A stretch of 64,000 nt of DNA from Salinivirga cyanobacteriivorans (GTDB lineage Bacteria; Bacteroidota; Bacteroidia; Bacteroidales; Salinivirgaceae). Numbering within the stretch: position 1 is the first letter of the stretch; each line of letters opens with the position of its first letter. A program made the translations under genes and the position numbers. The stretch spans positions 504,225 to 568,224 of the forward strand of contig NZ_CP013118.1 in assembly GCF_001443605.1 (NCBI RefSeq), read 5' to 3'. The notes below the pieces were generated by a model, which searched no databases, was not told the DNA's origin, and worked only from the letters and a program-made list of their open reading frames with translations. Positions 4,073 to 16,892 of the stretch are shown here, in pieces.

Positions 4073-4254
4073 GGTAACACGGGCGAGTGGGAAAAAGGCG
4101 CATATGGCGGTTTTTCTGTCGGTGCAGATTTATTTCCATCGCCAAATTTGATTTTTTCGTTCAAATTTTAGTAACATTGTAAAAGTAATTTGGCTCAGTG
4201 GAGCTTGATCGGTTTGTACAAGCAACCCTTTCTCCCACTAGCCCAAACGTTAGC
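4073..4254 (+). repeat. attC-like site of cassette 0 (182 bp)
   Basis: Left core 'ggtaac' (4073-4078) and right core 'gttagc' (4249-4254) bound an imperfect palindrome. The left arm 'aacacgggcgagtggg' pairs with the reverse complement of the right arm around 4232-4251. The predicted crossover is between g4249 and t4250. It is longer than most described attC sites. Confidence 0.65.
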
Positions 4255-5108: not shown

Positions 5109-5236
5109 GCTAACACGCTATATAAAAAATTTGGGGTTCATTGGTAATTACAACAACATCACTCGCATCAACATCAGTGTATCTTGATAAGATACTGCTC
5201 CGTAATCCCAAACTTTTCATATAGCTATTCGTTGCC
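5109..5236 (+). repeat. attC-like site of cassette 1 (128 bp)
   Basis: Cores 'gctaac' (5109-5114) and 'gttgcc' (5231-5236) end arms that pair imperfectly: 'gctatataaaaaatttggg' on the left with the reverse complement of the stretch 5207-5226 on the right. The size is like that of Vibrio cholerae repeats. The sequence before the left core (aac at 5106) extends complementarity to the cassette start at 4249-4257. Confidence 0.7.
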
Positions 5237-5865: not shown

Positions 5866-6050
5866 GGCAACAGCGGTTCATAAAGCAAAGGCGGTACGTG
5901 CGTTTTTGTGGGTTCGAGATTTTATTTTAACACCACCAAAACTTCGTTTTGACGTTTAAAGATGTACATTTGTAAAACAAAGTTTTGGCTCTGTGGAGTT
6001 TGAACGGTCTTTTCAAGTAAAGCCTTCGCTTCATAACCGCGTACGTTATG
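5866..6050 (+). repeat. attC-like site of cassette 2 (185 bp)
   Basis: Left core 'ggcaac' (5866-5871), right core 'gttatg' (6045-6050). Outer arms 'agcggttcataaagcaaagg' and the reverse complement of 6020-6043 pair; an inner stem is formed by 'ccaaaactt' and 'aagttttgg'. The right part of this site closely resembles the site at 6890-7072. Confidence 0.7.
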
Positions 6051-6234: not shown

Positions 6235-6894
6235 ATGAAAACTTTAGTATTAAGTTCAGTATTGGGGTTGACTATATTTCTATCAACATCACTCCTAGCG
6301 CAACTTCCTTCGATAGATAGTTTGCATATTCTACCTAATAATCCAACAGCTGGAGAACAAACTAGCTTGATTTGTTATACAACTTTTCCCTCTGGTGATT
6401 GTGAATTAAATGATCATACAGTAAATATTTTGGACACAAATATTATTGTAAATTTAAATTTTACTGTAGGAGACTATACAGTAATTTGCAATAGTATAGA
6501 CACGTTGATTATTGGTAATCTAAATGCTAATAACTATATGCTAATTGCGGAATTATCTCAAAATTTAGAGACGACTATTTATGACATAGATACAATTAAC
6601 TTTTCTATTGAAACAGTTGGGATTCTAGAAAATAAAATCGATGAAAACCCCTTTTATATTTATCCCAACCCTTTCACAGATAGAATTTCTATCGAGAGTA
6701 ATAGCGCTTTGAAAAATGTAAGTAAAGTTGAATTGATTTCAGTATACGGGCAAAAAATATATACGAATGATAATATCAATAATATAAAAACAGAAATTGA
6801 TACTAAAAACTTAATAGATGGAATATATTTTTTGATTATCACAAATGAAGAACAAAAATACGGTATAGAAAAAATAGTAAAGAACACTCCATAA
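6235..6894 (+). CDS. T9SS-exported protein with C-terminal sorting domain
   Basis: A 219-aa protein with an N-terminal signal peptide ('LVLSSVLGLTIFLSTSLLA', cleavage near residue 22), a beta-rich middle of about 120 residues that I do not recognise, and a type A C-terminal sorting domain from about residue 140 ('FYIYPNPFTDRISIES ... VELISVYGQKIY ... NLIDGIYFLIITNEEQKYGIEKIVK'). It should cross the inner membrane by Sec and the outer membrane by the type IX system, with the C-terminal domain removed or modified. It is the only gene of cassette 3, and its stop lies inside the left core of the next attC-like site. Confidence 0.8.
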   Translation: MKTLVLSSVLGLTIFLSTSLLAQLPSIDSLHILPNNPTAGEQTSLICYTTFPSGDCELNDHTVNILDTNIIVNLNFTVGDYTVICNSIDTLIIGNLNANNYMLIAELSQNLETTIYDIDTINFSIETVGILENKIDENPFYIYPNPFTDRISIESNSALKNVSKVELISVYGQKIYTNDNINNIKTEIDTKNLIDGIYFLIITNEEQKYGIEKIVKNTP

Positions 6895-7072
6895 CAGCGG
6901 CGTATAAAGCAAAGGCGGCCATTGAGTTTCGTGGGTTTGGAGTTTTAATTTAGCACCGCCAAAACTTCGTTTTGACGGGTAAAGATGTATATTTGTAAAA
7001 CAAAGTTTTGGCTCCATGAAGATTGATTGGTTTTTGCAAGAAAGGCCTTCGCTTCATCGCCACAACGTTAGC
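6890..7072 (+). repeat. attC-like site of cassette 3 (183 bp)
   Basis: Left core 'cataac' (6890-6895), right core 'gttagc' (7067-7072). Outer arms pair as in the previous site ('agcggcgtataaagcaaagg' with the reverse complement of 7044-7066). The apical region again carries 'ccaaaactt' and 'aagttttgg'. Confidence 0.7.
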
Positions 7073-7170
7073 TGCAAGCAAAAAAGACCGAAATCAAACA
7101 TTTGAACCTGAATATAAAAATTGAAAAAACGGATAGAAAACATTAACACTTTGATTGAAGGTTGGTGCAA

Positions 7171-7330: not shown

Positions 7331-10300
7331 ATGAAAGAAATATTAAGAAAATATTGCACTGACGAAATAGGAGAAACTGGATTGTTCTTATTCAATCCAC
7401 CAACAGGAACTGGGAAAACATATAGAGTGCTAGAATTTATTTTCAACAACTATAAAACAATATGTAAAGACGGACGCAAAATATTCTTTATAACTAACTT
7501 AAAGAAGAACCTTCCATATGAAGAACTTAGAGATAATTTCTTTGCGCACAACAAAAAGCTAAATGATTTTGACAAGCATGTTTTATTTATAGATTCGAAT
7601 CAGGAATTTATTCTAAAAAACCTACTTAATGTTGAAAACGAAATAGAAGACTACTTTAAAACTGCGGATTATTATCAATTGATAAAAAACTGTAGACGCA
7701 TTAAAAAGCATGAATCGAATTTAGGCATGCTTGATGTCGTTGATGAATTCAAGAGACAGATTCGAGAAACCTATGAACCAAATTTCAGGAAAAGAATTAC
7801 TGAATACTTACAAAAACACTTTCCAAATAAAAAGGAGCGACTAAAAGCTATTCAACAAAATAAAAAGCTCAATTGGATTGGCAAGCTTTATCCGACTGTT
7901 TATACAGATAAAAAAAAGATTTATTTTCTAAGCATTGATAAATTTTTCGCAAAGAACTCAACATTAATTGAGCCTTCGTATTATTTTCATGATAATGCGA
8001 TATCTAAAAAGGGGCTATTATTCATTGATGAATTTGATTCAACAAAAGATAGCATCTTATCGAATATAATAGACAAAGGAATTAGCCAAAAGGTTGATTT
8101 TATACAAATGTTCAACGGAATACATTTATCTCTTCTCAATAATGTATTTCCTCAGCAAATTATTTCAGAGTCTCAAGAGTGGAAAAGAAAAAAAGAATTA
8201 TTCAAAAGAATTCTTTCCCCACAAGAACAATTAGATTCGTTCAAAAGCAAAGCTGATAAAATCTGTAAAGATTTTAAGCTGAAAACAAGTTACAAAACCG
8301 ACAATTCAGGAATTGAACAAGATTCAAGAAGTTTATTATTCCACGATTTCCGATATCATTCAGTTTTGCAAGGAGACAAGAAATATATTTGCATAGACCA
8401 TAAACCAGAATTGGGTTTAAATCAAATAAAATTTCAAGATTTTAAACCAGCAAATAAATATGGTTCTGTTATCGCTCTATTAAATAGTATAAAAGGTTAT
8501 ATCAATTATTTTCAAAAGGGAATAAAACACCTTGCAACTAATTACCACGATTTAAAGAAAGAAACAAGTATTGACATTGAATATTCTTATGAATCGGCAT
8601 TGCAAACGATTTTGGAAGAATTCTCACTAGAACCAAAACATAAGAGTTTCTTGATTGACAATATACTTTCAGAAAGAAGTTTGCAAAGCTATGATGAAAA
8701 CAAATTAAAATATGATTTAAGTGTTTACCAAAATGGATTTAGATATTATGACTTTGTCGATAGTGAAGAACATGATACTGTAACCAAAACCTTTATATAT
8801 TCATTTCAAAATTCACCTGAGAAATTTATTTTAAAACTGGCTGAAAAAGGGAAAGTGATTGGGATTTCTGCAACTTCAACTCTAGAATCCGTTACTGGAA
8901 ATTTCGACATCAATTACCTTACAAGTCAACTTGGTGAGAAGTTTTATCAAATGACTAATGAAGAAGTTACTCATTTGCGCAAAGAGTTTGACCAACAATT
9001 TCCTAAATATACAGATAAGGTTAAAATAAAATCGGAATGGCTAGAACAGAATAATGAGTCAAATATACAAGATTGGATAAATTTGTTTGGTGATGAAGAC
9101 TTAGCAAATGAAATTTTTAATAAGCTCCATCCAAATCCGTTTTATCGAAATCGGTATTTTAAAGTTGCATATGTATTTAAGCAATTTTTATTAAAAGATG
9201 ATATTCAATCCTTTTTATGTATGTTAAATGCCTTTCCAAAAGCTTACTCACCAGCTTTTGATGAAAATCATTTAATTCAAATATTTGAATATTTAGCAGA
9301 AGTCACGAAAACAAAACATTTGTTCGAAATTGATGGAGTATTTAACATTAGTCGGAGCTATATCATTATTAAGAGCAAAGACTTTGATACGCAAAAAGAA
9401 GGGCTTCTTGAACGACTAGAAAATGGTGAAAAGCTTTTTATTATTTCCACTTATCAGACTTTGGGTGCTGGTCAGAACTTGCAATATAAAGCACCAAAAC
9501 CAGAAAACATGGTTAAATTTTTAAAGAAAGGAGCTTCTGATTGGAATACAAATAATAAAACAGATATTAACGCAATTTATCTTGATGAACCAACCCACTT
9601 ATTAATCAATGCCAATAATAAAGAATTAAAAGAAAATGATTTTGCCAAATACCTCTTTCAACTTGAATTTCTTCAAGAGCATGGAGATATTTCAATGTAT
9701 CATTTAAACCAAGAAGTTAAATTTGCATTTAAGAACTTAATCAGTTCTTTACATACCAAAGGCATTATTCAACGTTCTTTTAAACTAGAAAGTCTTTATA
9801 AAAAGTATAATTACAGCCAGCATGTTTCAAAAATAATCATTCAGGCAATAGGGCGACTTTGTAGGACAAACTTTAAAAGCAAAAACATTTATATCTATGC
9901 TGACAGTAAAGTTTATCCACATCTGCAAACTGTAAATACCGATAGACAGATTTGTTTATGGGAATTTTTGAACCTTAAGAACACCAAGCTTAGTTCTAAT
10001 ATTGAATTAGATAAGGTTGATTCACTTGAAGTTTATCAAAACTCAGCAAATACAATAAGCAGAAAAACAAATACTTTAATAAAAAGATTCCTTGAAACAG
10101 AATGGTCTGTAAAAAGTATGGATGAATGGAAAATGCTTAGGGAAATGACATTATATTTTCCTGTGATGACAGATGATGAAGCAATAAAACATTCTCGATT
10201 TAGGCAATTATATGTACAGCTTCCTCAGACTCATAATTCATATTCTTATGACCAAAAAGGTGATTACGATGAAATTGATATCAACTTTTCAGTAGAACAG

Positions 10301-10831
10301 CCATTTTCAGTATCGGAAGAATCATCAAGATTGGGTAAGTTTATGCAAATACCAGGTGTTAAAGACTTTTTTATTGAGAAAAAATGGGCAACAGAATTTA
10401 AAATTGGACGATATATGTTAACGCCTTCACTTTTTAACAATATCTATAAAGGAGCGTTAGGTGAAGTTGTAGGTAAATACGTTTTTGAAAAACACCTTGA
10501 TATAGAATTGAAAGAAATAGATAGTGAAGGTTGCTTCGAATTTTTTGATTATAAAATCAATGATGATGTTTATGTGGATTTTAAGCATTGGAAAGAATCA
10601 TCCTTTTTCTCAGCAGAAGAAGAGAAGGAAAACATTTATAATAAGTTGAATACATTAGAAGCAGAAAAGGTGTTTATTATTAATATACTATCTGAAACAG
10701 ATTATAAAGTAATTCCATCTAATGACAAGCGAATTATAGAGATACCATTTTTATATAATCTTAATTCTAATGAATTTAATAAGGAAGCGTTTTTAACTAT
10801 TGTGAGTGAACTTGAATATGCAGACAATTAA
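7331..10831 (+). CDS. SF2-type helicase fused to a PD-(D/E)XK-like nuclease (1166 aa)
   Basis: Helicase motif I is 'PPTGTGKT' (residues 23-30), motif II 'DEFD' (233-236), a motif III-like 'ISATST' lies near residue 515, a motif V-like 'TLGAGQNLQ' near 712, and motif VI 'QAIGRLCR' (838-845). The C-terminus looks like a restriction-type nuclease: 'GALGEVVGKYVFEK' (Glu1045), a second acidic strand, and 'VDFKHW' with Asp1083 and Lys1085. It would couple NTP-driven nucleic-acid remodelling with cleavage. The closest architecture I know is the helicase/REase partner in pPIWI-RE operons, but I cannot assign it there. It overlaps the next gene by 14 bp and is carried in a very large gene cassette. 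A defence function is inference. Confidence 0.75.
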   Translation: MKEILRKYCTDEIGETGLFLFNPPTGTGKTYRVLEFIFNNYKTICKDGRKIFFITNLKKNLPYEELRDNFFAHNKKLNDFDKHVLFIDSNQEFILKNLLNVENEIEDYFKTADYYQLIKNCRRIKKHESNLGMLDVVDEFKRQIRETYEPNFRKRITEYLQKHFPNKKERLKAIQQNKKLNWIGKLYPTVYTDKKKIYFLSIDKFFAKNSTLIEPSYYFHDNAISKKGLLFIDEFDSTKDSILSNIIDKGISQKVDFIQMFNGIHLSLLNNVFPQQIISESQEWKRKKELFKRILSPQEQLDSFKSKADKICKDFKLKTSYKTDNSGIEQDSRSLLFHDFRYHSVLQGDKKYICIDHKPELGLNQIKFQDFKPANKYGSVIALLNSIKGYINYFQKGIKHLATNYHDLKKETSIDIEYSYESALQTILEEFSLEPKHKSFLIDNILSERSLQSYDENKLKYDLSVYQNGFRYYDFVDSEEHDTVTKTFIYSFQNSPEKFILKLAEKGKVIGISATSTLESVTGNFDINYLTSQLGEKFYQMTNEEVTHLRKEFDQQFPKYTDKVKIKSEWLEQNNESNIQDWINLFGDEDLANEIFNKLHPNPFYRNRYFKVAYVFKQFLLKDDIQSFLCMLNAFPKAYSPAFDENHLIQIFEYLAEVTKTKHLFEIDGVFNISRSYIIIKSKDFDTQKEGLLERLENGEKLFIISTYQTLGAGQNLQYKAPKPENMVKFLKKGASDWNTNNKTDINAIYLDEPTHLLINANNKELKENDFAKYLFQLEFLQEHGDISMYHLNQEVKFAFKNLISSLHTKGIIQRSFKLESLYKKYNYSQHVSKIIIQAIGRLCRTNFKSKNIYIYADSKVYPHLQTVNTDRQICLWEFLNLKNTKLSSNIELDKVDSLEVYQNSANTISRKTNTLIKRFLETEWSVKSMDEWKMLREMTLYFPVMTDDEAIKHSRFRQLYVQLPQTHNSYSYDQKGDYDEIDINFSVEQPFSVSEESSRLGKFMQIPGVKDFFIEKKWATEFKIGRYMLTPSLFNNIYKGALGEVVGKYVFEKHLDIELKEIDSEGCFEFFDYKINDDVYVDFKHWKESSFFSAEEEKENIYNKLNTLEAEKVFIINILSETDYKVIPSNDKRIIEIPFLYNLNSNEFNKEAFLTIVSELEYADN

Positions 10832-12869
10832 AACTAATAAGATAAAAATTGAATTTTTTATAGATAAAATCCTAACTGATTTTTCAATTTTTCAAATTAC
10901 AACAAGTGATTTCTATATCCCGTTTGGGAGTCTAATCCTCGATGAAACAATAAGTGGTTTAAAAGCATTATCTGTTGTTTTCGAAAAAGGAAATAGCTTC
11001 TTCTGTTTATTTAAAGGTAATAGTATAAAAACTAATCTTATATCTAGTACTATAAAACAATTTGACGGTGGAGATAAATTATCTGTAGAAAAAATTGATA
11101 GTAAAGAAAAGCTTGAAGCTGTTCCAATTCATTTAGTTGCTCAATTGCTAATAAACTCCTTATCATCGCCTAGTAATGATTTGTTGGCTTTTAATAATAT
11201 AGCTGGTTCTTTATTATGTTTAAATAGAAGTTTATTTGTAACTAATCGTTCTGGTGAGAATGAAAAGATAATTAAGATACCTGCCTTAAAATTAAGAATT
11301 GACAAAGAACTATGTTTAAATATTGATGTTAAGACTTTTTCAAGTTTGCTTATTAAGAAAAAGTTAGACATAAAAAAGCCATTGAAAGACTATCCGAAAT
11401 ATATTATTTCTCATTCAACTCAAAAACTTAGAAGGTTATTGCCTGACGAGAAGATTGATGCAGCTAGTATTTTTATTGAAAAACAAGAACCTAAAAAGAA
11501 AACAACTATTGATTTTATAGATTTTTCGGGTAAGGAAAAGTTTGAGGCTTCTAAAATGGGTTTTTTATATTCATTTTTTCAGGATATTCAGAAAAAGCTA
11601 AGTAACTATTTAGATTTGAGTTTTATTGAGGTAAAGCCAAAAGAAAGTATCCGCTATGAGAAAAGGTTGAATATAGATAAAAACACAAAAGTAAATGAAG
11701 CAATAAAAAATACCTCTTTTCACATTGTGGATATGGTCGGTGAAGAAGATTCAGAAGAATTTATTTTAGAAATAAAAAAATCATTAACAACTTTTACTGA
11801 GGCAAGTCGGATATCAATTGGCAAACGTTTAAAAGATGAATGCTTTAATCTTATAGTTATTCATAATTCAGTCTATTATGAGAAATATAACCTAGAAGAC
11901 CCATATAGAAAAGATAAACCTGAAGGTATTGCTTATCAACATATAACTATTGAAGATTTTAAGTATTCTTCTAGAAGTATTATAAACAATATTATTAAAG
12001 AACTTATAATTAAGTCTGATTTAAAAGAAAGAAAGATTCAGATAGTCGATTGGGAAGCCTACCAATTCAATGGTAATTGGAAATTTGGAATCAAAAAGGA
12101 TGATTTGTTTTATTTCTTAGAAGTAAATCCCAACGGTGAAATGAAATTCTCTACTTTAGAAAATAACTTATTTAGTTCCTCCAGTTATACAGAGTATTGC
12201 GACTTATTTGATAACCTCCAAAATGAAAGAAAGGAATTGCAGATTGATGGCATTGTAGTATCTGACAAGGAAGAAATAAATGTCATTCAACAAACTGATT
12301 ATTACACAATACCAGATTTTTTAAGTGTTGGAAATACATTCAAGGAAGCCACACAGCAATTCACTATAAACAAAAAGGAGTTTTTAGATTTATTCGATGA
12401 GTTTTCAAATCAATATGAACACAAAGAATTAGAAACTATTAATAATGAAATAAAAGACGTTGCTTTTTCAACCTTAGATAGAAAACAGATTTTGCAGCTA
12501 ATAACACATCGTACTGTTCGGAAGGAGTTTAACCAATTCTTTTATGAACGAACAGGTAATTTACTGCATTATTACTTTAAAGATGCTTTGACACGATACA
12601 AACTTTTAGATTCAAATCTTGATATAAAATACTTTCAAGAAGGTGAATTTGGATATTATTTTGTTGGTACAAAAGGAGAAGGAATTCAATCCAATTTTCC
12701 AAGAGCTTCAAAGATTAGGAAAGTTATACCATATAATTCAGCTCCTATTCTGTTTGATAAGTTATTACCTACTTTGAATGTTGATTTTGTAAAGCATGAG
12801 AACATAACAGTGATTCCTTTTCCATTTAAATATTTAAGAGAGTATGTTAATCAAACCCACACAGCCTAG
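10818..12869 (+). CDS. uncharacterised partner protein of the helicase-nuclease (683 aa)
   Basis: I do not recognise this protein. ATG 10818 is chosen over an upstream GTG at 10806; either way it overlaps the helicase stop and is translationally coupled. It has no signal peptide or membrane segment. Residues 340-405 ('FNLIVIHNSVYYEKYN', then 'YQHITIEDF' and 'IIKELIIKSD') recall the MID/PIWI junction of Argonaute-like proteins, where a Q-containing strand is followed by a helix with a conserved Lys. The C-terminus ('NSAPILFDKL ... VIPFPFKYLREY') could also fit a PIWI end. No DED(X) set is obvious, so any PIWI-like fold would be very divergent. The last base of the stop lies inside structured repeat copy 3. 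Confidence 0.55.
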   Translation: MQTIKTNKIKIEFFIDKILTDFSIFQITTSDFYIPFGSLILDETISGLKALSVVFEKGNSFFCLFKGNSIKTNLISSTIKQFDGGDKLSVEKIDSKEKLEAVPIHLVAQLLINSLSSPSNDLLAFNNIAGSLLCLNRSLFVTNRSGENEKIIKIPALKLRIDKELCLNIDVKTFSSLLIKKKLDIKKPLKDYPKYIISHSTQKLRRLLPDEKIDAASIFIEKQEPKKKTTIDFIDFSGKEKFEASKMGFLYSFFQDIQKKLSNYLDLSFIEVKPKESIRYEKRLNIDKNTKVNEAIKNTSFHIVDMVGEEDSEEFILEIKKSLTTFTEASRISIGKRLKDECFNLIVIHNSVYYEKYNLEDPYRKDKPEGIAYQHITIEDFKYSSRSIINNIIKELIIKSDLKERKIQIVDWEAYQFNGNWKFGIKKDDLFYFLEVNPNGEMKFSTLENNLFSSSSYTEYCDLFDNLQNERKELQIDGIVVSDKEEINVIQQTDYYTIPDFLSVGNTFKEATQQFTINKKEFLDLFDEFSNQYEHKELETINNEIKDVAFSTLDRKQILQLITHRTVRKEFNQFFYERTGNLLHYYFKDALTRYKLLDSNLDIKYFQEGEFGYYFVGTKGEGIQSNFPRASKIRKVIPYNSAPILFDKLLPTLNVDFVKHENITVIPFPFKYLREYVNQTHTA

Positions 12870-12969: not shown

Positions 12970-13051
12970 GGGAACAGCAGTGCTTCGATTGAGCGGAATT
13001 ATGATTGCAAAAGATTGATAATTAGTTGATAGAGAATCAATGCCAGCAGCT

Positions 13052-13102
13052 AATCGAGTAGATGGCCGGTGAGCTAAAACAGCCCACCGGAGCACCTCTC
13101 AC
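13052..13102 (-). ncRNA. group II intron domain VI
   Basis: The minus strand contains a hairpin with arms 'ccggtgggct' and 'agctcaccgg' around 'gtttt', followed by the conserved-looking tail 'ccatctactcgatt' up to the 3' splice region. The position just after domain V and just before the 3' exon supports the call. Confidence 0.65.
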
Positions 13103-13125
13103 AGTTCTGCTGAGCCTGTCGAAGT

Positions 13126-13158
13126 ACCACCGTACGTACGGATCACGTATACGGCGGT
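13126..13158 (-). ncRNA. group II intron domain V (catalytic hairpin)
   Basis: On the minus strand 33 nt fold as a long hairpin, with 'accgccgta' pairing with 'tacggtggt' and an upper stem of 'tacg' and 'cgta' around 'gatc'. The RT stop codon (13143-13145) lies within it, as in introns whose maturase runs into domain V. Confidence 0.7.
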
Positions 13159-14331
13159 TCTCTAAACCATGGGAACCGAGGACGAAGGACGAGTTCAGCG
13201 AAGCTAAACAGCGTGTAGATACCCGAAGTTTTGGAGATCGTTTTAAACATTTCTGTTAAAGAGACATAACCGCGTTTCTTTAAACGGGTTTTAGTGATGG
13301 TGGTGCCCAATATTGGGCTTTGAGCGACTGCCCAACCTCCCATCCTGGTGCGGCTCCATGCATAAGCATGGTCTGGATCGACGCCCAATCGGAGAAGGCT
13401 CCGCCTTTTCTTTTCGGGCTTTTTCCAGTGATGCCAGATGCAGTAACGTAAGCGGTTACGGAGCCATCCGTCTAATTCCTCCAAATTCACTTTGATATTG
13501 GCATATTTAAAAGCGTTGAGCCATCCACGTTGGATTTCTTTCAGCTTTGCAATACGCTCATCAAAGCTCATTGGTTTGGTCTTTCGGGTTACATCTTTCA
13601 ACTTGGCTTTGAACGTTTTCCATCTCTTCCGGGTCACTACTAATTGGTATTTGCCCTTTACTCCTTTTTGATATACCGGAGCAAATCCAAATCCCAATAT
13701 CTGGAATTGTGTAGGCCGTCGGATGCCGCTTTTCTCCCGGTTAATCGGAAGTTTTAACTTATCCCTCAGGTAAAGGTAAACCTGATTGCCTGCTCTCCTT
13801 GCTTCTGATTTTGTTTTGCAGTAAATGCTAAAATCATCGGCATAGCGGACAAATCTTAGCCCTAGACGCTCCATTTCTGTATCTAACTCATGTAAGATGA
13901 TGTTGGACAGTAACGGGCTAATCGGACTGCCTTGCGGTACTCCTTTCCTGCGTTTTATGAGTTTACCATCTTTTTCGAGTGGTGCTCTCAACCAACGCCT
14001 GATAAGACTCATGGTGGCTTTACACTTAACCTTCCGGTAGAGCAATTGTAAAAGCAGCACATGATCGACATTGTCGAAAAACTGTTTGAGATCGATTTCA
14101 ACAATGTGTTGGTAGCCTGAATTGATGTAGTGCAATGATTTTCCTACGGCCTGATGCGTGTTCCGTTCCGGACGAAACCCATAACTATAGTTTGAAAATT
14201 CCTGTTCGTAGCGCAACATTACCACACGTAGAACTGCCTGTTGTAGCGTCCGGTCTACTGCGGTAGGGATACCCAGAAGGCGCATTTTACCTCCTCCCTT
14301 GGGTATCTCTTTGCCCCTAATCGGTTGAGCG
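13143..14331 (-). pseudogene. ltrA: group II intron reverse transcriptase/maturase, N-terminally truncated
   Basis: The largest Met-started frame (380 aa) begins at 14285, but in-frame coding continues upstream to 14331 ('QPIRGKEIPKGGGK'), so the Met is internal. RT blocks are intact: 'VEIDLKQFFDNVDH', 'GVPQGSPISPLLSNI', 'RYADDFSIYC' (catalytic YADD) and the maturase X-domain ('RGWLNAFKYAN'). RT blocks 0 and 1 are missing, cut exactly where the IS21 inverted end starts. The element cannot move on its own but the remaining RT could be expressed. Confidence 0.88.
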
Positions 14332-14401
14332 TGAAAATAGCAAATTTAAAACCAACAAATTTTCGTAAAAATAAACCATCATTTTACGGTAAAAAATATA
14401 T

Positions 14402-14460
14402 TAATCAACGCTCTGATTGTTGAGGGCGCGTAGCGACCGAAGCAATCAGAGCGTTGATTA
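14402..14460. terminator. perfect 18-bp hairpin at the istB end of IS21-A
   Basis: 14402-14419 and 14443-14460 are perfect inverted repeats around a 23-nt loop containing 'gcgtagcgac'. It overlaps the istB stop codon. It may be a bidirectional terminator or protect against read-through; it lacks a clear T-tract. A similar hairpin sits at the same place in the second IS21. Confidence 0.45.
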
Positions 14461-15207
14461 CTGCTCGAAGATAGTTTTTCTGTTTTCCATTCTGTAACTT
14501 TTCCCAGTCAGCTTTACTACTTCACATTTAAATAATAGTCTGTCCAGCAAAGCTGTTGCCAGTACTTCATCATCGAGCATTTCTGCCCATTGCTGAGGGG
14601 ATTTATTTGTTGTGATAATTACAGATGTTTGTTCATGCAAATGATTTATGAGATTGAAAAAAGCGACAGCTTCATGTTTCTTGATAGGAAACAGCATTAT
14701 GTCGTCTATTGCCACTAAATGAGCCTTTAAAAGACGGTTGTAGGTATTTAGTGCGGTAGAAGTCATTTCTTTCATTTTTAGTACGGTTACTAGTTCCTCC
14801 ATGGTGATGAAGTATGCTTTATGTCCAGATTTTACGGCATCGTTAACCAGACCTGCGGCAACATATGTTTTTCCTGTTCCTGAAGGTCCCATGAGTATCA
14901 AATTGTAATTTTGTTCCAGCCATAATAATTCCCGTAATTGTTTTAATTGGGGGACAGACATACCGTTTGCCATATTAAAATCATACTTGTCAAGATTGTG
15001 ATCTTTAGGTAGCCGGGCTAATTTCAATCTCCTTTCAAGATCTGTTTTCCTTCTGTGTTGCACTTCTCTTTGTAAGAGCAGTAATGCAAATTCCTGGTAA
15101 GAAGGTTTGTCTATCTGTGCCTGGTGAAGCACTACTTCCGGTTCGTTCTTTAACTTTGTTAGCCGTAAAATATCGGCATAGTTTTTAATTTGATCTAATA
15201 CTTTCAT
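14458..15207 (-). CDS. istB: IS21 helper ATPase IstB
   Basis: The 249-aa AAA+ protein has Walker A 'GPSGTGKT' (about residues 105-112), Walker B 'LVAIDDIM' and the sensor region 'VIITTNKSPQQW'. IstB organises the target complex and stimulates the IstA transposase. It lies 3 bp downstream of istA in the same direction. Length and motifs are complete, so the element looks functional. Confidence 0.93.
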   Translation of the reverse strand: MKVLDQIKNYADILRLTKLKNEPEVVLHQAQIDKPSYQEFALLLLQREVQHRRKTDLERRLKLARLPKDHNLDKYDFNMANGMSVPQLKQLRELLWLEQNYNLILMGPSGTGKTYVAAGLVNDAVKSGHKAYFITMEELVTVLKMKEMTSTALNTYNRLLKAHLVAIDDIMLFPIKKHEAVAFFNLINHLHEQTSVIITTNKSPQQWAEMLDDEVLATALLDRLLFKCEVVKLTGKSYRMENRKTIFEQ

Positions 15208-15210
15208 TTT

Positions 15211-16770
15211 CTAATTCATTATTGATTCATATTCATTGATGTCGCTTTTTTGAGGCTGCATATCATCATTTTGTTGCTTATTCAGCCCACCGGTTTCTAT
15301 ACATATGCTGTGTTTCACATTCTCTAAACCTTGTTCTTTCTCAAAATAATTTAGTACTTCGGCAAAACGGTTGGCATTTAGTATCTTGTTTTCATAACAA
15401 TAAACCAAAGCAAAATTGATTGCTTCTGCAGATGACCTTTCGATGTTCTTTTGCATAACCCTGAGGCTATCATGAAAATTACGGGGTCTATTATTCTCTA
15501 TTTCTGCCAGGTATTGCTCAGCCTGGGGGATGTGTCTTAAACTCTCCAAAACCAACTCATACGTTTTTTGCAGTGTCTTTGATTTTTCCCTTGCGTGGTC
15601 ATTATTTTTAATAATCCGACCGATGTCTAAACAGAGGTCATGTGTAGCCAGTAATTGATTATCACCAGTATAGAAGAAAAGTTTTCCATCTTTTTCTTCG
15701 AGTAAAATCTTTGTGTCCCTATCTTGATAAGTCCCCAAAGGCACACTGTAATAATTGCTTCGATAAAGCACCGTATTATCTTTTCGGACAGGGTGTGTCG
15801 GTAATTTTAAAAATGGTTTTTCTGGTTTCCCATTATAGGGCAGCAGGTGTTGCTTTTCTTTTTCCCATTCTTCTTTTGGAATGCGTTTGGTTGTGCCATG
15901 CACCTTGGCATTTCCGGTGCGTTCAAGCCACAGCAAGGCTTCTTTTTGTAAAGTGTCAATATCTTGAAAAACTCTCCCTTTTAGATAATTATGCTTTACG
16001 TATTTTACAACGTTTTCTACTTTTCCTTTACTCTCGGGATCTGCTTTTTTGCAAAACACCACATCAAATGGATGGGCATTTGTAAACTGCATAAATTTCT
16101 CCGTAAGAAGGACATCCCCAAGATTTTCATCTGTTATAAAAACACGATCCTGATCATAGAGTATTCGACGGGGTATGCCCTCAAAATATTCGAATGCAAG
16201 CTCATGTGCATAATTTGCTGACTCGGTAGTAAATGGCATTCGTTGGCAGTAAATAAACTTATGTCGTGACCGTGAGAGAACTATTGTGAAAAAGTAAATC
16301 TTAACCCTGCCACTTCCGCGACTAAGCATACGGTATGAGCCAAAATCTACTTGTGCTTCTTCTCCATATTCTGTCTCTGCAAGCTTCTCATATTGCCGTG
16401 GAAGTTTTTCTTTATACTTGGGTATATTTTGCTCTTTTCTTACTGTTTGAACAAAATTATAGACAGTTTTGCTGCTTACATCAGGTAGATTCGTATAACG
16501 TTCTTTTAATCTATCCTCAACCTGGGCTGCTGACAAATAAGGTGCGTTACCCAATAATTCTTTGACAAAATTATAATACCCATTTAGCTTTTTAGGCATT
16601 CTACGAGGAGTACTGATCCACTCTAAAAACTGAGCTTCGTTCATTAAAAGGTACTTGCGTACAGTTCCTCTGTCAATACCTAATTCTAATTTAATTTGAC
16701 TTTGATTTAGTCCTTGTGCCGATAATTCTTTAATTTTGTACCACATAAAAACTTTTTTGTTTTTATTCAT
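15211..16770 (-). CDS. istA: IS21-family transposase IstA
   Basis: The frame opens at 16794, but the Met at 16770 matches the start of the related IstA in this window ('KVFMWYKIKELSAQGLNQSQIK' lines up with 'KFCMWYKVKELSENGFNKSQIS'), giving 519 aa. It has an N-terminal helix-turn-helix, an rve/DDE catalytic core ('EAQVDFGSYRM', 'RILYDQDRVF', 'DPESKGKVENVV' with the final Glu), and a C-terminal Mu-type beta-barrel region. It cuts and joins the IS ends. Confidence 0.92.
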   Translation of the reverse strand: MNKNKKVFMWYKIKELSAQGLNQSQIKLELGIDRGTVRKYLLMNEAQFLEWISTPRRMPKKLNGYYNFVKELLGNAPYLSAAQVEDRLKERYTNLPDVSSKTVYNFVQTVRKEQNIPKYKEKLPRQYEKLAETEYGEEAQVDFGSYRMLSRGSGRVKIYFFTIVLSRSRHKFIYCQRMPFTTESANYAHELAFEYFEGIPRRILYDQDRVFITDENLGDVLLTEKFMQFTNAHPFDVVFCKKADPESKGKVENVVKYVKHNYLKGRVFQDIDTLQKEALLWLERTGNAKVHGTTKRIPKEEWEKEKQHLLPYNGKPEKPFLKLPTHPVRKDNTVLYRSNYYSVPLGTYQDRDTKILLEEKDGKLFFYTGDNQLLATHDLCLDIGRIIKNNDHAREKSKTLQKTYELVLESLRHIPQAEQYLAEIENNRPRNFHDSLRVMQKNIERSSAEAINFALVYCYENKILNANRFAEVLNYFEKEQGLENVKHSICIETGGLNKQQNDDMQPQKSDINEYESIMN

Positions 16771-16892
16771 AGCCTTCTTTTTTGTGTTTTGCAACTTAAA
16801 GATGAAGGCTATTTTTATTTTCGCAAGTGATGATTTTCAATTGCGAAAATTTGTTGGTGCAAATTTTCTAATTACAGAACCCTGTCAATTGT

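Follow-up and report, generated by a model that had tools for sequence, protein, structure and literature searches.

The window analysed here, a 64,000-nucleotide stretch of the Salinivirga cyanobacteriivorans genome (G000; one contig of 4.81 Mb, NZ_CP013118.1, of which the window covers positions 504225–568224), contains a series of cassettes delimited by attC sites on the forward strand. The first site, AAC...GTT, of 176 nt, lies at 4076–4251 (hairpin score 39); its R'' sequence, gttggtaac, pairs with a cassette start at genome position 492606, and the cassette that follows begins GTTAGCGTT. A 122-nt site of a shorter family comes next at 5112–5233, with an R'' (aacgctaac) that is the reverse complement of GTTAGCGTT, and is followed by two sites of a longer family, one of 179 nt at 5869–6047 (R'' gttggcaac, the reverse complement of GTTGCCAAC) and one of 177 nt at 6893–7069 (R'' ctccataac, the reverse complement of GTTATGGAG; arms GGCGTATAAAGCAAAGGC and GCCTTCGCTTCATCGCC), the latter being the uninterrupted sister of a site that is split by an intron. 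Between these two sister sites, a cassette starting with GTTAGCTGC at 7067–7075 carries genes for a DdmD-like helicase-nuclease (7331–10831, forward strand; PADLOC DdmD, E = 1.5e-39; PDB DdmD 9ix4, E = 4.9e-59) and a DdmE-like prokaryotic Argonaute (10806–12869, forward strand; PDB DdmE 9iw3, E = 7e-12), so that what had been described as a helicase cassette (genes at 7331–12869) is a DdmDE-like anti-plasmid system borne by a single attC cassette of ~6 kb. Its own R'' core survives only as GCAGCTA (13046–13052), which on the minus strand forms the 3' exon (T AGCTGC) of a group IIC intron.

Repeats were called as attC sites where a hairpin score of at least 30 was accompanied by matching R' and R'' sequences; at a score of 19, most matches were background. 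By stem scan they form families of 121–125 nt and 174–181 nt that have structure, not sequence, in common, and RNAalifold on the MAFFT-aligned sites recovered a conserved inner hairpin and lost the greater part of the outer arms, since these come in two types that sequence alignment does not bring together. Of 20 consecutive pairs, 17 have an R'' that is reverse-complementary to the first 9–10 nt of its own cassette, as in an integron array, and this complementarity is chained through three arrays, giving the attC interpretation of the original prediction a support that is independent of the intron. Immediately beyond the matching core, attC sites across the genome show a nearly fixed difference, with A in the cassette start and G in the R'' complement, after which complementarity resumes in several cases. 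The difference amounts to a T.G wobble on the bottom strand and an A.C mismatch on the top strand, the arms are equally asymmetric, and it may help choose the strand. The bottom strand is the better folder in 19 of 23 attC sites (mean –1.9 kcal/mol, p = 0.0017); the better-folding strand is thus the one that integrases and IIC introns are known to use.

Two further features of the array can be recorded. A 15.9 kb stretch separates the attC sites at genome position 492606 and window position 4248, whose R' and R'' sequences still match over 9 nt; it contains transposases, a sensor kinase and regulator, a TonB-type receptor and a WYL regulator, and may be read either as a giant cassette or as a cassette with later insertions. 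In addition, TAnnTTTG occurs in the apical hairpin region of 11 of the 13 long-family attC sites (for example at window positions 5965 and 6988), several of them with TTTTG upstream. This motif resembles the Bacteroidota –7 promoter motif, and the cassettes may bring their own outward promoter.

The intron itself is 5'-truncated and occupies 13053–14333 on the minus strand, opposite to the cassette genes as had been predicted, with 97.6–98.2% identity to copies at 4.40–4.44 Mb. Its final base is 13053, where the minus strand reads ...CTACTCGAT/T AGCTGC (the slash marking the boundary), also written as ..CCATCTACTCGAT/T AGCTGC... Domain VI (13053–13102) folds with a candidate branch-point A at 13059, its ACTCGAT fitting AXX(X)XRAY, and domain V (GAACCGCCGTATACG..CGTACGTACGGTGGT; 13126–13160) folds into an element that is also present in IIC relatives; the two domains together (13053–13160) gave z = –4.7 against shuffled sequences, none of which was equally stable. 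In this genome's copies they are separated by ~23 additional bases (13103–13125, ACTTCGACAGGCTCAGCAGAACT) that most relatives do not have, and this insertion may be the reason why Rfam group II families, at either gathering or relaxed thresholds, matched nothing in the window as a whole or in the surroundings of the intron. The frame at 13143–14285 (minus strand) encodes a truncated reverse transcriptase (RT)/maturase of 380 aa, by profile match a group II protein with RVT_1 and GIIM and no endonuclease domain, in which YADD is kept and the N-terminus is lost (its full-length sister has 463 aa). Because this frame extends well beyond 13158, the interval 13046–13158 originally assigned to the intron covers its 3' end, and the element continues to 14333, where it is cut at its 5' side by an IS21-family element (14331–16876, minus strand; IstB, PF01695). 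Domain I is absent, and only the 3' end of the intron is left, the 5' half having been removed or displaced by the IS21 element. A 99.96% identical IS21 copy lies in the opposite orientation at genome positions 4451106–4453651, and both copies adjoin attC arrays. The missing half of the intron, which could have been moved by recombination between them, was found neither in the window nor beside the second IS21 copy.

Besides the window copy, about nine other copies or fragments occur in the genome, namely three full-length copies of ~2.05 kb with an intact 463-aa RT frame at 4.41–4.44 Mb, four ORF-less copies of ~740 nt at 4.40, 4.41, 4.607 and 4.610 Mb, and two fragments in the same region as the sister copies. 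The full-length copies have a 5' exon ending in ..TGT, an intron that opens with GTGTGCCC and finishes with ..CTCGAT, and a 3' exon consisting of T and the cassette core; their ends (GTGTG...ACTCGAT) and domain V hairpin conform to the GUGYG and AXX(X)XRAY boundaries of group II introns. Together with the empty sister sites they define the junction layout 5' exon ...TGT/GTG(T/C)G ... CTCGAT/T. Since uninterrupted sister sites read through on the bottom strand as ..CGCCGCTGTTAGC.., comparison with the ends of the full-length copies places the insertion point at TGT/T. The original prediction was thus right that the intron follows the IIC-attC rule on the bottom strand, published as TTGT/T (PMC7923331), and one base late in placing it after TGTT; the retained part of the core is GCAGCTA rather than gcagc. 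With these refinements and the longer extent of the intron, the observation of an attC R'' core split by the 3' end of a group IIC intron was as described.

In eight of the nine copies in the genome, the 3' exon repeats the first 7–8 nt of its own cassette and lies at the core of the preceding attC site, while four wrong placements gave no match of at least 7 nt in 36 comparisons. The partner of the window copy is GTTAGCTGC, which lies where it had been predicted (7067–7075), at the other end of the two-gene cassette and at a distance of 6 kb. The four ORF-less copies share one deletion junction, differ from one another by only 2–5 bases and occupy four different attC sites, a pattern from which we infer that an ORF-deleted form of the intron has likely been spreading with RT supplied in trans. 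Separately, a second RT intron, 44–46% identical and interrupted by stop codons, is present at genome positions 1070992–1072302 (minus strand; L019), apparently in the top strand of an attC site at the R' core (ACGT/T) and in the same orientation as the cassettes.

Copies that are 98–99% identical and spread over three arrays might also have travelled without any retrohoming at this site, the intron having arrived inside a cassette/attC hybrid through homologous recombination between copies in different arrays; cassette building by IIC-attC introns through such recombination has been proposed (PMC7923331). We regard this as unlikely, since the 3' exon of the window copy (TAGCTGC) still matches the start of its own cassette at 7067, and the same holds for most other copies, although this is only a partial test, as recombination between copies would mix the 5' flank and not the 3' flank.

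The closest solved relatives of the RT are GsI-IIC and the Eubacterium rectale maturase, far ahead of LtrA. With RVT_1 and GIIM only, no endonuclease domain and a length of 457–463 aa, the protein falls in the class C radiation, as predicted, in agreement with trees that leave out classes A, B, D, E and F. IIC introns are known to target terminators or attC sites (PMC4424553), and the canonical IIC-attC references used here were three RTs from class 1 integron introns that follow dfrA14, blaIMP-4 and arr-2 and run against the direction of the genes. Contrast was provided by IIC introns of Proteobacteria and Firmicutes, several with 5' exons ending in terminators; among them are the Citrobacter and Pseudomonas RTs initially taken as integron-borne references, which were rejected in that role as they are not integron-borne.

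With the IIC-attC introns of class 1 integrons and CALINs (S.ma.I2 type), the introns described here share the attC bottom strand, the R'' core, TGT/T, the gene-opposed orientation, an RT that has no endonuclease domain, domain V and the 3' end ..CTAC(C/T)CGAT/T. These likenesses would suit an ordinary member of the known IIC-attC lineage, imported with integron cassettes by horizontal transfer, but the RT phylogeny makes such an origin quite improbable. The RTs of the Bacteroidota attC type fall into a single clade (100/99), which lies elsewhere (99/97 and 100/99) than the class 1 integron RTs, and the latter cluster with GsI-IIC and terminator-type introns (100/99). Constraining both attC groups to a single clade cost 40 log-likelihood units and was rejected with three canonical rows in the alignment (AU p = 0.006; p = 0.026 once the divergent 1.07 Mb copy was added). 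The Bacteroidota introns also differ from the S.ma.I2 type in their hosts, almost all Bacteroidota, in their different, longer attC families, and in having ORF-less derivatives in several attC sites. The original prediction of a known kind of IIC-attC intron therefore stands for the target rule and not for the lineage, and the separate clades point to a second attC-targeting IIC lineage, distinct from that of class 1 integrons. At this sampling, attC targeting may have had two origins or a single one older than the split between the clades.

A scan of species genomes found 80 intron loci, nearly all in Bacteroidota, with relatives ranging from Marinilabilia (85%) to Flavobacteriaceae and gut Bacteroides, Phocaeicola, Prevotella and Paraprevotella. 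Among readable ends, 40 of 41 5' exons finish in TGT and 63 of 68 3' exons open with T. At the rebuilt junction, an AAC hairpin scoring at least 25 was found in 24 of 41 relatives and at 1 of 41 random AAC positions, and an R'/R'' match of at least 7 in 34 of 65 relatives and 1 of 65 shifted controls. Roughly one third of the testable relatives satisfied neither measure; short contigs, which limit this test, and a scanner adapted to this genome could account for some of that fraction. A few loci, such as L114, L133 and L175, have the 3' exon TGAACTAAA, which is unlike an attC core and may point to a different kind of target. Among gut bacteria, introns in five species of Phocaeicola, Prevotella, Bacteroides and Paraprevotella (L147, L148, L149, L151 and L152) have identical flanks, CCATATGT/TATGCGGTCGGT, and a strong attC-like stem, which suggests one attC-bearing element moving among gut Bacteroidota.

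Pairing between intron and exon, the other check that had been proposed, gave a partial answer. A strongly conserved ACTGACGAACAGGAAC block in the aligned 5' regions (ACTGACGCACAGGAAG in this genome) contains ACA(G), ACAG in most relatives, which could pair with (C)TGT, and in one covarying case, G075, an ACAT in the block goes with a 5' exon of ATGT. Several relatives (G119, G039 and G082) do not keep up the pairing past the TGT core, and EBS3 was not located. These patterns are suggestive of the block being EBS1, and go no further than that.

The array in the window was traced upstream to 480.6 kb. It is headed by a gene for a 503-aa tyrosine recombinase at genome positions 477481–478992 (L032 7481–8992), ~25 kb upstream of the window, and the first cassette (GTTGGCAAC) begins ~100 nt past the recombinase stop codon in the same orientation. 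A classical IntI was rejected for this array: no gene of the genome exceeds the cut-off of the TIGR02249 integron-integrase model (265 bits), against which the array-head recombinase scores 188.8 bits (slightly better with NF040815) and its relatives 189–217 bits. Relative to Vibrio cholerae IntI4, ~42 residues are absent where the IntI-specific additional domain sits, and the spacing from box I to HxLRH is 91 aa in this protein and 91–92 aa in 18 of 18 relatives. Among 149 genomes of the order, two have a protein over the TIGR02249 cut-off, this genome not being one of them, and 38 have a relative of the array-head recombinase at E < 1e-60.

At least six other genomes (L065, L069, L070, L071, L075 and L078) have attC sites downstream of such a relative and on its strand, with 15 sites within 16 kb in L078. 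The array starts 100–230 nt after the recombinase in several genomes, and in several others the contig ends 100–500 nt past the gene, as expected at the start of a repeat array. The same layout is found on the Chryseobacterium plasmid NZ_CP041688, where the array bears an intron of the Bacteroidota clade and the recombinase (WP_143853951.1) is annotated as 'site-specific tyrosine recombinase/integron integrase'. In that array (L111/L210), near-empty cassettes (GTTGGGAAAAATCG..CGATTTTTCCCAAC plus attC) are repeated between gene cassettes. The Salinivirga recombinase has an N-terminal extension of ~220 aa, seemingly with two similar stretches (..NDWIRF.. and ..SDWLRF..), and one or more such stretches (ARWSxTxxxWHIP) occur in its relatives; they are possibly an extra DNA-binding module.

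Array-head recombinases and IntI group together in our tree (92/92); a comparable known group is the integron-like subgroup of simple tyrosine recombinases, within which the insertion is reported to be incompletely conserved (PMC8138268). Integron surveys define IntI by the additional domain (PMC9668308, PMC2426708), and IntegronFinder 2.0 reported Salinibacter ruber M1 as the complete integron found in Bacteroidetes (PMC9024848). The arrays share with IntI integrons the attC R''/R' cores, the circular-cassette signature, an attI-like first junction and the bottom-strand folding bias; they differ in a recombinase without the ~42-residue insert, often with an N-terminal extension, whose gene points in the direction of the cassettes. 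From its position, we infer that the array-head recombinase is the integrase that moves the cassettes. In the literature searched, we found no insert-less integron-like recombinases linked to attC arrays.

The lack of any TIGR02249-passing gene in the genome would fit repeats of some other family favoured by the intron rather than integron attC sites. This is very improbable given cassette-specific R'/R'' complementarity chained through three arrays, two size families alike in structure and not in sequence, and arrays that begin just behind a dedicated recombinase in several genomes; moreover, no attC-strength hairpin occurred around seven other tyrosine-recombinase loci (55 kb of strand), and the remainder of the window had almost none. 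Least credible of all is a terminator-type IIC intron downstream of a gene, its attC match a by-product of the attC inverted repeat, for although IIC introns generally insert after hairpins, and terminator-type members (GsI-IIC and those of Pseudomonas, Citrobacter and Anoxybacillus) share the RT class, domain V and a hairpin upstream of the insertion, their target is a transcription terminator and not an attC core, whereas the present intron lies within the R'' core, splitting AAC rather than following a terminator T-run, with eight of nine copies at cassette-specific cores and relatives likewise. Terminator-type insertions were seen only among more distant RTs, such as G137 (41%), behind terminator-like hairpins ending in TTGT; within the clade itself, the conditions set to refute the original prediction, relatives inserted in terminators or genes or an RT outside class C, did not overturn it.

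We therefore conclude with high confidence that the window contains a group IIC intron copy, dead and 5'-truncated, of a multicopy element in an integron-type attC array, belonging to a Bacteroidota-wide, attC-specialised clade whose arrays are served by putative integrases without the IntI domain. Its insertion site, orientation, multiplicity, clade, arrays and array-head recombinase can be read from the sequence, and its position in the R'' core on the bottom strand, at (T)TGT/T and opposite to the cassette genes, is that of the IIC-attC target class. Splicing and retrohoming would have proceeded by reverse splicing, in which the excised RNA together with its RT entered the attC bottom strand, folded or single-stranded, in the R'' core between TGT (IBS1) and T (IBS3); the RNA would then have been copied into DNA via an endonuclease-less pathway, and an IS21 copy would later have destroyed the 5' half of the intron. 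More broadly, it is probable that Bacteroidota carry a distinct and widespread integron type, in which a XerA/IntI-like tyrosine recombinase that lacks the IntI-specific domain inserts and shuffles attC cassette arrays, and these are parasitised by their own IIC clade, its attC targeting acquired independently of the known IIC-attC introns.

In conclusion, the window holds an attC-specialised IIC intron whose Bacteroidota clade differs from the known one; we found no paper treating group II introns, Bacteroidetes and attC together in the open-licence literature, which is weak as evidence of absence. Many Bacteroidota carry both attC-specialised introns and integron-like arrays headed by an unusual putative integrase that standard searches would miss, and the larger interest lies in the arrays that the intron marks. 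If two IIC clades strike one and the same base of this single-strand hairpin, attC targeting can arise more than once, and the intron would then serve as a built-in marker of attC sites missed by sequence-based tools. Should the array-head recombinase be the integrase, such arrays would be classed as integrase-less by any survey that demands the IntI domain, and the need for that domain in attC recombination would be called into question. Integron gene capture would also gain a large phylum, represented here by a cassette with a DdmDE-like anti-plasmid system.
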